NCBI GenBank assembly: GCA_032622095.1
Contig: CP136061.1
Coordinates: 85,596,324-85,660,323 of the forward strand
From: Siphonodentalium dalli
Taxonomy: Eukaryota; Mollusca; Scaphopoda; Gadilida; Siphonodentaliidae
Length of the DNA stretch: 64,000 nt
Reading direction: 5' to 3'
Shown in pieces: positions 4,561-62,800 of this stretch. The translations under genes were made by a program, and so were the position numbers. Position 1 is the first letter of the stretch, and the number at the start of each line of letters is the position of its first letter. Below the pieces are notes generated by a model. It was not told the origin of the DNA and made no database searches. It was given only the letters and a program-made list of their open reading frames with translations.

Positions 4561-5157
4561 TTACCTTATCGAGAATATAAATAGCTTACCGGAGCAGATC
4601 AAATCGGATATGATGCTATTGTTTACTGACCTTATCGATGATATATATAGCTTCCCCGAGCAGATCAAATCGGATGTGGTGCTATGGTTTACTGACCTTA
4701 TCGATGATATATATAGCTTCCCCGAGCAGATCAAATCGGATGTGGTGCTATGGTTTACTGACCTTATCAATGATATATATAGCTTCCCCGGGCAGATCAA
4801 ATCGGATGTGGTGCTGTGGTTTACTGACCTTATCAATGATATATATAGCTTCCCCGAGCAGATCAAATCGGATGTGGTGCTATGGTTTACTGACCTTATC
4901 GATGATATATATAGCTTCCCCGAGCAGATCAAATCGGATGTGGTCCTGTGGTTTACTGACCTTATCAATGATATATATAGCTTCCCCGAGCAGATCAAAT
5001 CGGATGTGGTCCTGTGGTTTACTGACCTTATCAATGATATATATAGCTTCCCCGAGCAGATCAAATCGGATGTGGTCCTGTGGTTTACTGACCTTATCAA
5101 TGATATATATAGCTTCCCCGAGCAGATCAAATCGGATGTGGTGCTGTGGTTTACTAT
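4561..5157 (-). repeat. 66-bp tandem array copied from the end of an exon
   Basis: Eight near-identical 66-bp units plus one diverged distal unit. Since 66 is divisible by three, several frames on both strands stay open. On the - strand each unit reads as 22 residues including 'HIRFDLLGEAIYIIDK' and then AAG|GTCAGT, a good 5' splice site. The unit at the high-coordinate end joins a longer open frame (5093-5350). Several other units carry an in-frame stop (CCATAG). I read the array as tandem copies of exon end plus donor. The distal copy instead has CTCCG|GTAAGC. Confidence 0.75.
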
Positions 5158-5350
5158 AGATGTTGCTGATTTCATTCTCTGAAGTTTTGAAGGTGAATGT
5201 TGGAATTTTGCCATTTTTGAGGAAAGAATCTTTTTGTTCCAGCAAGTTGAGAGGAACTACTTCATTTTTATATCGATCCGGCTCCGATTTCAGATGTTTG
5301 ATATCATGTTTCACGGGTGGTGGCTGCGCATTCTTCTTTGTTTTTGTCAT
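5093..5350 (-). CDS. Candidate coding exon, possibly DUF1704/MATCAP-like
   Basis: An open frame of 86 codons from an ATG at 5350 down to a donor AAG|GTCAGT at 5093/5092. The product is basic at the start, then 'EVVPLNLLEQKDSF', 'IPTFTFKTSENE' and 'HIRFDLLGEAIYIIDK'. An in-frame TAA lies 8 codons upstream of the ATG, so this is either the first coding exon or begins at an unseen acceptor. The order 'PLNL-E-K--F ... P-F-F ... SKP ... L-EAI-I-DKV' recalls the region before the metallopeptidase core of DUF1704 proteins (tubulin tyrosine carboxypeptidases MATCAP1/2). That is recall of a family pattern, not an alignment. I did not find the next exon below 4560. The end of this exon is what the 66-bp array repeats. 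Confidence 0.45.
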
Positions 5351-59800: not shown

Positions 59801-62800
59801 AGTCGGAAATATGGCTTGTTGCCATTCATCGGAAAGTTCTCGGGGAGAGCTTTCCGATGAATGGCAACAAGCCAGTCTTCAGTTCATATATATTATTTTA
59901 TACCCACGCAACTATTTCAAATTTGTTATTTAAAGAGGTAATCCATCTTTAACCAAATCAGTTGTTATTTTGTTCAATTTATCACTCTATCATGATCAAA
60001 ATTCATGAAAGAGTACTTATTAAATAGTGTAACTCTGCCCAAAATAGGCCCACTTCACAGGTTTTCAAACTCGATCAAGACATTTTTGAGCAAGACATAC
60101 ACTGAATATTAACAAGATCAGTTACAGCCTGAAAATTGCTTTAAAATAGACAAACTAAGGGCTATGTATAGCTCAGGTAAAAATAACTGAATAAACCTGG
60201 TTTTCATAATTTATATCTGTGTACATATGTGTACCATCATTATCAATCAAGTAATAACAACATAACAACTGAGAGGTTAGATACCATCTGAGAGGTTACA
60301 TATACCATCCAATAGGTTACATACCATCTGAGAGGCTGCCCATCAAATTCCAGCCAGAGTTCCTGAGCATTTTCTTGAGAGATGTACTTCACGAAATGCT
60401 TCTGTACTTTATCGATTATCAAAGGGAAATAACTCAGTCTTGGCACCAGGAGCTGTGAAGAAGAATCAAATTTAAATAACAGTGTTGGTGGGCTTTGCTT
60501 TATTACCCAATGTATCTATTTTGGTGACAGGGTGGTGGTATAAGCCACAAGTGTTGTTGTTTCCAAAAAATGTTTATTACATGCGTGCTAAATTTTTTTA
60601 AATAGCATGGGGGTTAGTGATAATTAAAATTCAGTGGGACATATATTTATTACTATTCTTAGAAACCACCATTCAGCGATATCAGATAGCGTTAGAGATT
60701 ATAAGAGCATTGCTATGCCCCGAATGTCAAATGTCCCAGATTTAATCAATATAAATCTTGTTATAGGAAGAGATAATCCATCTTTAATCCTTTCTGTAAT
60801 AATCAATCCATCATCCATTTATTTATTATAAAATAGCCGAAAATACCAAAACGTAGATCATCGTGTCTGTCTCTTAGAAGTTACAGTGAAATCGCATTTT
60901 GTTATTTGTGACCCGCCATATCAAATCCAGCCATTAGTCGGGATTGTTTTTACCCTGTGCCAATGCATTCTCTTATATATGCGAGTCGACCATAGGTCGC
61001 CTCGCATATATAAGAGAATGCATTGGCCTAACAATTTTTTATCATTTTTTTAAAATAAATGTTTCTTACAATTTTTAGGACATAAAATAAAAAACATCCA
61101 TTACCCTGCAGGGAGCCCCACACATATATAGAAGCATATAGAAGAGTGTCGTCTGCTCATGTTTGTCTGGGGCTCTGTATGGGTGAAATTATAAAATTGT
61201 TAAAGAATACAAGAAAAAGTTATTAAAATTGTAAAAAATTGTTAGGCCAATGCATTCTCTTATATATGCGAGGCGACCTATGGTCGACTCGCATATATTA
61301 AGAGAATGCATTGGCACAGGGTAAAAAAATATCCCGACTTACGACTGGATTTGATATGGCGGGTCACATTTCACTGTTGTTTTTGTTATTTCACTGTAGC
61401 TTGCTGAATGATATCATGGCATCATCAGCTGATCGGTGTTAGACATTTGGGTCAACCAGGATGTTACCAGGTATTGCTTTCCGCGTATTGTTTAATTTGT
61501 TGTGTTACTAAAAGTGAGCATGCTGTATAATTTAGCAACTTAAAGCATTAATAAATCACATCTAATAAAAAAGAACACCTTCAATTTTTGTTTGAATACC
61601 TGAAACATCTCATTCGTGTCTGGAAAGAAATATCTTTCAATATTTAAACAAAAACTGTAGGTGTTCTTCATATACCTGTAGTGCATTATACAGTAAATTA
61701 TTACCTCGGGTCATAGGGCGTGTGACACCATTGCCATCGTTCATCACACTAACCACTAGAGCACGGAACTCTGGACCAAGCCCGCAAATAGAGTGTCTGT
61801 CATTTGCAGAATGAGGTCCCCAGAGAGTGAATTTAGTGACGCTATCCCGCATAGCAGGCTCAATTATGAATTTTATCTTCTGCAAATTAGGGGATAGAGA
61901 AACTTCCTAGGAGGGAAATGTAACTAAAAACAATGTTAATTTGATACTATAGATACTTCCCAGAAGTTGTGGCCTAAGCAGAATGAGGTCCCCAGAGGGT
62001 GAATTTAGTGATGCTAGCCCATTATGCGGGATAGCGTCACTAAATTCACCCTCTGGGGACCTCATTCTGCAAATGACAGACACGCTATTTGCAGGCTTGG
62101 TAAAGGATGACTCTACTGACTCGAGAGGATCTTGAAATATTCTGGTCGCGCATTGGTAAACAAAAGTGAAACCTAGTGAATCGGTCGATTGCGTAATCTA
62201 GTGTGAAATTGAAAACTTCTATATCCCCTTCTGGGCAATATCAAAATTTATGAAACATAGATTTTTTTATAAATCAAAATGAACGTATAATGAATATGTG
62301 TTATATGCACAATGTGTTTTGTATCGATTCATGTATCGCGACGAGGCTAGTTTTAGTGGCCATATAGCAACGAGGCGCTATGTGGCCATTAAAACTAGCC
62401 AATTTATGATACATGCATCGGTAAAAACACATTGTATATATAACACGTTTATCTATAATTGGTGTGACAGAATTCACCACACAAATTACATTTTAGGAGT
62501 TGATTAAATGCCATAAAAATCATTGGATTAGTGTCTGATGATAGCTTTCATGAGTAAATTCTCTTAACCTGCAAATTAGGTCGATTTGCTAAATTGTCCC
62601 AACCTGCGAATATGCCTAATGGAAATTGAATGCAATGGACAATATATGTTAAACACCTGCGTTTTTTTATATAATTTTATAATAAATACTCAACAATACA
62701 TATTAGTCACTTTGTAATATGTTATACCACAATACCCATGATGGGAGACAATGAAATAATGTTAAAAGTTAAAACCTAGGTACTATTTTTTATATATGTA

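Follow-up and report, generated by a model that had tools for sequence, protein, structure and literature searches.

Why should the ends of exons, together with the adjoining 5' splice sites (donors), recur in tandem in the introns that follow them? This question is raised by a 64,000-bp stretch of the genome of the scaphopod mollusc Siphonodentalium dalli (GenBank assembly GCA_032622095.1, contig CP136061.1, positions 85,596,324 to 85,660,323; hereinafter, the window), in which we located 7 coding exons of ATG5 on the minus strand, with exon 1 cut by the window edge, and 4 exons of EEF1AKMT1 on the plus strand. According to the original prediction, made from the letters of the window, exon ends are repeatedly duplicated by a previously undescribed process specific to donors. 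We found that arrays spanning exon-intron boundaries affect both sides of exons, that in two independent genes, CLTC and PRPF8, they occur at a rate equal to that of random placement, and that the copy within the exon is unlike the rest. These arrays are probably neutral boundary minisatellites of the kind known as “mirages” in lancelets, tolerated via exon-proximal splicing, with donors being nothing special.

Arrays spanning exon boundaries in the window

A site was considered spanned when a local direct repeat, with a blastn self-alignment score of at least 40, covered at least 8 bp on either side of the junction. By self-alignment, 5 of the 10 donors in the window (those of ATG5 exons 2, 4 and 6, of EEF1AKMT1 exon 2 and of a candidate exon described below) and one of the two stop codons (that of ATG5) are spanned, compared to none of the 9 acceptors and neither of the two start codons. 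The exons were placed using tblastn, the human ATG5 and EEF1AKMT1 proteins serving as probes, and then fixed to GT-AG ends, which are present at all 9 introns of the two genes; the spliced frames are open over 801 nucleotides in ATG5, where the 5' end is cut by the window edge, and over 651 nucleotides in EEF1AKMT1. Among the best 120 of 633 matches to the spliced ATG5, those to named mollusc ATG5 proteins show 56-67% identity across 97-100% of the query, and of the named records, that of Ylistrum balloti has the best E-value (62% identity) and that of Patella vulgata the top identity (67%). Tandem Repeats Finder (TRF) produced 61 rows for the window. The affected exons and the associated repeats are as follows.

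60325..60452, minus strand: ATG5 exon 2, with the donor GTATGT at 60324 (tblastn, GT-AG ends)
60260..60335, minus strand: boundary array at the ATG5 exon 2 donor, units of 19-20 bp (TRF, self-alignment)
59532..59737, minus strand: second array of the ATG5 exon 2 donor motif, 40-bp double unit, ~520 bp from the first, 97% match to 60274-60335 (TRF)
54453..54623, minus strand: 90-bp repeat just 3' of the ATG5 exon 3 donor, intronic, not spanning the donor and not counted (TRF, self-alignment)
51666..51828, minus strand: ATG5 exon 4 (tblastn, GT-AG ends, open spliced frame)
51563..51734, minus strand: boundary array at the ATG5 exon 4 donor, 82-bp unit (offset 82), ~2 copies (TRF, self-alignment)
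46418..46526, minus strand: ATG5 exon 6 (tblastn, GT-AG ends, open spliced frame)
46238..46479, minus strand: repeated end of ATG5 exon 6 with its donor, source 46389-46479, copy 46238-46330, offset 151, 82% identity (self-alignment)
44751..44896, minus strand: ATG5 exon 7 with the stop codon (tblastn, GT-AG ends, open spliced frame)
44361..44810, minus strand: array of the ATG5 coding end and stop codon extending into the 3' flank, 58-bp unit (TRF, self-alignment)
26088..26170, plus strand: EEF1AKMT1 exon 2, with the donor GTAAGT at 26171 (tblastn, GT-AG ends, open spliced frame)
26105..26529, plus strand: boundary array at the EEF1AKMT1 exon 2 donor, 69-70 bp unit (offset 70) (TRF, self-alignment)
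26810..26962, plus strand: more diverged copies of the EEF1AKMT1 exon 2 donor unit, past ~280 bp of other sequence (copy comparison)

Thus, the exon-end arrays originally reported at EEF1AKMT1 exon 2, at ATG5 exons 2, 4 and 6, at the stop codon and at 5093 are present, and only ATG5 exon 3, with its intronic repeat, drops out. The units are unrelated in sequence and in length, which argues for a recurring process rather than one repeat family, as had been proposed, and arrays in two genes on another chromosome-scale contig (below) bear this out. At all spanned window donors and at the ATG5 stop codon, the repeat partners lie only downstream, again as originally noticed, but this direction is uninformative. 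When a segment across a donor is duplicated in tandem, the first copy is, by definition, the one that continues the exon body, which leaves all others downstream; at an acceptor, the copies all lie upstream. What is informative is the comparison of donors with acceptors and with ordinary intron sites.

Taken by itself, the window favors a process tied to donors, such as R-loop formation or replication slippage at 5' splice sites, that repeatedly duplicates exon ends. Spanned donors outnumber spanned acceptors (5/10 vs 0/9, P = 0.022; with the candidate exon excluded, 4/9 vs 0/9, one-sided P = 0.041), and in shift tests, 12-13% of window sites were spanned at offsets up to 200, compared to 4 of the 10 donors (P = 0.005-0.016), and 18-20% at offsets up to 700, compared to 5 of the 10 (P = 0.013-0.029); at offsets up to 2500, with 28-30% of the sites spanned vs 5/10 donors, significance is lost (P = 0.08-0.13). 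All these P values are post hoc, the pattern having been picked out in the very data that were tested.

Frequency of boundary arrays in CLTC and PRPF8

The genome test employed the assembly that contains the window (2,226,750,531 bases in 9 contigs), with the test and the predictions written down beforehand. Both independent genes were picked before their sequences were seen, and PRPF8 was absent from the written plan. Junctions outside the window were accepted if they had GT-AG ends and the match to the probe ran on without interruption, and introns were scored between probe residues 13-1610 for CLTC and 15-2285 for PRPF8. The point scan required a local repeat score of at least 60 at an offset of at most 700, within flanks of 1500 bp. 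A further CLTC match elsewhere on contig C4 was left out, and one CLTC acceptor has unknown bases in its 700-bp upstream flank. Stop codons were scored in the window only, and the counts for these two genes comprise donors and acceptors.

In CLTC, arrays span 1 of the 28 donors and none of the 28 acceptors of 28 introns; in PRPF8, where donors and acceptors alternate without a break over 40 introns, they span 5 of the 40 donors and 4 of the 40 acceptors. Pooled, this amounts to 6/68 donors vs 4/68 acceptors (one-sided Fisher P = 0.37). Intron control points were set 300, 600 and 800 bp from junctions, the last distance taking the place of the planned 1000 and 1500 bp in view of the length of the flanks. 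Of these points, 26 of 309 are spanned, so that donors are indistinguishable from them (P = 1.0), as are the junctions taken together (10/136, exact 95% interval 3.6-13.1%; P = 0.85). Mid-exon points yielded 0/47, as coding constraint predicts; both kinds of control points derive from the first-pass junctions only, before the repeat-confused ones were resolved by hand. That first pass, by chaining, gave 0/23 donors and 0/23 acceptors for CLTC and 4/31 donors and 3/32 acceptors for PRPF8, having lost 3 CLTC and 6 PRPF8 junction pairs with confusing repeats (in PRPF8, three query gaps, two cases without a GT-AG pair and one implausible donor), all later hand-resolved along with exons that had been missed at first. 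A practical warning follows: exon calling by unique collinear matching misses precisely the array-spanned junctions.

A census in which the observed arrays with offsets of at most 200 were placed at random, and crossings of junctions counted, gave the same picture: 8.3 crossings expected and 10 seen in PRPF8, 3.3 expected and 1 seen in CLTC, and 11.6 expected and 11 seen in the two genes combined. The 10 crossing arrays of the PRPF8 census compare with 9 spanned junctions in the point scan. At the 18 known junctions of the window, 1.7 crossings were expected and 3 seen (P = 0.24), the count being limited to 3 because the ATG5 exon 2 case falls outside the offset limit. Arrays occupy 9,865 of 68,000 bp around PRPF8, 3,713 of 45,584 known bp around CLTC and 9,018 of 64,000 bp in the window.

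These equal rates make a donor-tied process unlikely, and so do the PRPF8 acceptor that is present 9 times and the ATG5 stop codon array, which involves no donor. Equal rates at acceptors or random sites were the outcome that the original prediction had itself named as speaking against it, and for 136 junctions of two genes, this is what was found; likewise, the claimed lack of arrays upstream of acceptors holds for the window but not for the genome, given the four PRPF8 acceptors. Several points, nevertheless, weigh against the view that donors are not special. The window donors exceed those of CLTC and PRPF8 (4/9 vs 6/68, P = 0.014, post hoc); with all known genes pooled, the window included, donors lead acceptors by 10/77 to 4/77 (P = 0.08); the predicted clear depletion of acceptors relative to the intron background did not materialize in a sample of this size (4/68 vs 26/309); and the independent sample consists of two genes. 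The window, then, is either an upward fluctuation that caught the reader's eye or a mild local excess, and the pooled lean to donors leaves room for a modest donor bias.

Structure and divergence of the arrays

Outside the window, an array at a PRPF8 donor (C4:23278670-23279992) has a 93-bp unit of ~83 exonic and 10 intronic bases and includes 13 intact CATAG/GTAAGTCCT copies, counting the real donor. At PRPF8 acceptors, a 70-bp unit occurs 9 times including the real one (C4:23261280-23261840), and a 90-bp unit 4 times including the real one, with the occurrences 98% alike. The CLTC donor at C4:98529026 belongs to a 39-bp unit in 8 copies, again including the real one. Overall, unit lengths are 39, 59, 67, 70, 90, 93 and 118 bp outside the window and 19/20, 66, 70, 82 and 151 bp within it. 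Microhomology at the ends of units, inspected by eye, was set aside because diverged copies make it untrustworthy. At C4:23259126-23259179, the start of a PRPF8 exon is present as a diverged copy immediately 5' of the exon itself; this copy lacks the acceptor and represents exon sequence duplicated without the splice site.

The copy joined to the exon stands apart from the others. In the 93-bp array of PRPF8, the exon copy has ATC (Ile, like the human probe), in contrast to GTC or GTT (Val) in the 12 other intact copies; in EEF1AKMT1, the five copies adjoining the exon have in common a 1-base deletion that breaks the frame. Coding constraint thus acts on the copy attached to the exon body. Over six arrays, 49 of 56 copies retain the splice GT, compared to ~80% for the copy-weighted mean dinucleotide of the same units; given the shared ancestry of the copies, this retention does not clearly point to selection in either direction. 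Selection for spare donors, one of the causes originally suggested, accordingly lacks clear support.

The arrays might nonetheless be used, if tandem identical sites gave rise to alternative transcripts, either carrying stops for decay or longer in frame, with copy number tuning expression. Many copy donors score equal to the real donor, as measured with a donor weight table; splicing at the next donor in the 93-bp array would bring in an in-frame TAA, which might trap aberrant transcripts; and the 90-bp acceptor unit of PRPF8 is in frame and free of stops. However, there is no sign of better retention of copy splice sites than of the rest of the unit, the rate equals that of random placement, one extra unit shifts the frame in most of the other arrays (70, 82, 151 and 59 bp), and splicing was reported as undisturbed in lancelets (PMC3087553; PMC3902484). 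Such a role is, therefore, improbable, and equally so the broader notion that essential genes, PRPF8 with its core role in the spliceosome among them, make real use of identical tandem sites, such that downstream donors yield stop-containing transcripts for decay, in-frame acceptor units yield longer proteins, and mutable arrays serve as genome-wide expression dials.

Probable origin and tolerance of boundary arrays

The most plausible scenario begins with local tandem duplication and array expansion, probably by slippage or unequal exchange, hitting numerous sites in the gene regions of this genome. Where an array by chance overlaps an exon edge, it would copy a short exonic tail and the adjoining splice site into the intron and, at the last exon, the coding end and the stop codon into the 3' flank. 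Normal mRNA would come from the copy joined to the exon body, that is, the 5'-most copy at donors and the 3'-most at acceptors, and boundary arrays would survive because this copy still yields it. Under exon definition, the nearest acceptor-donor pair defines the exon, which would give exon-proximal choice on both sides. The remaining copies, presumably neutral, would be free to diverge and homogenize. The same reasoning covers the ATG5 stop codon array because translation ends at the first stop. The open spliced frames of ATG5 and EEF1AKMT1 are only consistent with undisturbed splicing, as far as can be judged from the sequence.

This kind of array is already in print. In lancelets (Branchiostoma), mirages are minisatellite-like tandem duplications across exon-intron boundaries, described in Adh3, BflGb6, BflGb9, TnC and PGBD5, with units of 10-72 bp in Adh3, 150-160 bp in the globins, and 60 and 108 bp in PGBD5; they affect both 5' and 3' boundaries, with splicing reported undisturbed, and keep splice signals in many but not all copies, with the inner copies homogenized (PMC3087553; PMC3902484). 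The exon-edge arrays described here are probably a further instance, and the phenomenon is not, as first thought, undescribed. As in mirages, the repeat spans the boundary, so that each unit is both exonic and intronic (5/10 window donors, 1/56 junctions in CLTC and 9/80 in PRPF8); both boundaries are hit in PRPF8, the window itself showing donors and one stop codon only; units vary by locus in sequence and length, with the splice dinucleotide kept in most copies; and the 66-bp array described below, the sole array scored for this feature, is homogenized inside with a diverged edge copy. Unlike in the lancelet work, the lineage is another one, the rate was measured against an intron background, and there are up to 13 intact donors or 9 acceptors per array; splicing and haplotype instability were examined in lancelets, whereas the present arrays are known from the sequence of one assembly alone. 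A minisatellite with several donors is reportedly present, going by a title, in a human interferon-induced gene, at a single human locus. Our literature search found no boundary minisatellites in molluscs or bivalves, but it left subscription papers largely uncovered, so that absence is unproven.

Mirages have been proposed to give rise to new introns (PMC3087553), and in a potato RdRp, a tandem duplication that includes the splice signals creates a new intron (PMC4974935). The introns affected here could have arisen by tandem duplication of exon pieces with AGGT (the Rogers model), in line with the presence in the arrays of exon pieces with splice signals. Unlike in potato, however, the copies lie at one intron end only, and no new intron was seen. 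The acceptors of ATG5 exons 5 and 7 and of EEF1AKMT1 exon 3, which in every case lie less than 2.5 kb from an affected donor, lack a matching repeat, and within 2.5 kb, no intron between two copies of one exon piece was found in ATG5 introns 4 and 6 and EEF1AKMT1 intron 2. This origin is thus highly unlikely. Least likely of all is an assembly artefact because copies are distinguished by point changes and indels, with identity as low as ~80% in several arrays, and arrays are present on two contigs (C1 and C4), although exact copy numbers in the assembly may be wrong.

If the rate of 10 in 136 junctions, found in two housekeeping genes, holds genome-wide, this animal represents a natural experiment on spliceosome choice among identical neighboring sites, with indispensable genes containing rows of 13 perfect donors or 9 acceptors. 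Boundary arrays would also provide numerous points of departure for the gain of introns and the shifting of boundaries.

The candidate exon and its 66-bp array

The remaining spanned donor in the window belongs to a predicted exon, listed here with its array.

5093..5350, minus strand: candidate exon of uncertain status, no relative found (Pfam, protein and PDB searches)
4558..5155, minus strand: 66-bp array, 9 copies including the copy inside the candidate exon (TRF, copy comparison)

The array does cross the claimed donor, but the exon itself remains unconfirmed: Pfam and protein searches with 5350-5093 gave no match, and PDB gave chance matches only. Membership in the MATCAP/DUF1704 family was ruled out, as a probe for this family matched nothing and Pfam likewise gave no match. 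The inner copies are identical to the first at 64-65 of 66 positions, and the distal edge copy, at 55/66, is the sole strongly diverged one. A DNA search of the assembly, with very common words skipped, matched this array to its own locus only. The whole array (4558-5155) cannot code in the frame of the candidate exon because of an in-frame TAG in the fifth copy, counting the exon's own, and the open reading frame ends at 4880.

Other features of the window

Long satellite-like arrays, with units of 161, 174 and 164 bp, are located away from mapped exons at 730-1878, 7306-8014 and 48534-49491, respectively. A 24-base motif was detected at 51 places in the window on both strands, with at most 2 mismatches (for example, 6083-6106, 54801-54867 and 58219-58285), often in facing, fold-back-like pairs; this dispersed palindromic motif had 0 exact matches in viral_contigs and 0 in genome_contigs. 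Beside the 164-bp array, in ATG5 intron 5, there is an open frame of 60 amino acids (48365-48547, minus strand) without a Pfam match. The EEF1AKMT1 exon 3 donor, GTTCGT at 28357 (plus strand), looks weak, and a large array with units of 68 and 45 bp (28590-29829, plus strand) begins ~230 bp 3' of it without spanning it. EEF1AKMT1 intron 3 also contains an unbroken frame of 1053 amino acids (33480-36641, plus strand) with reverse transcriptase (PF00078) and endonuclease/exonuclease/phosphatase (PF03372) domains, an element of the non-long terminal repeat type.

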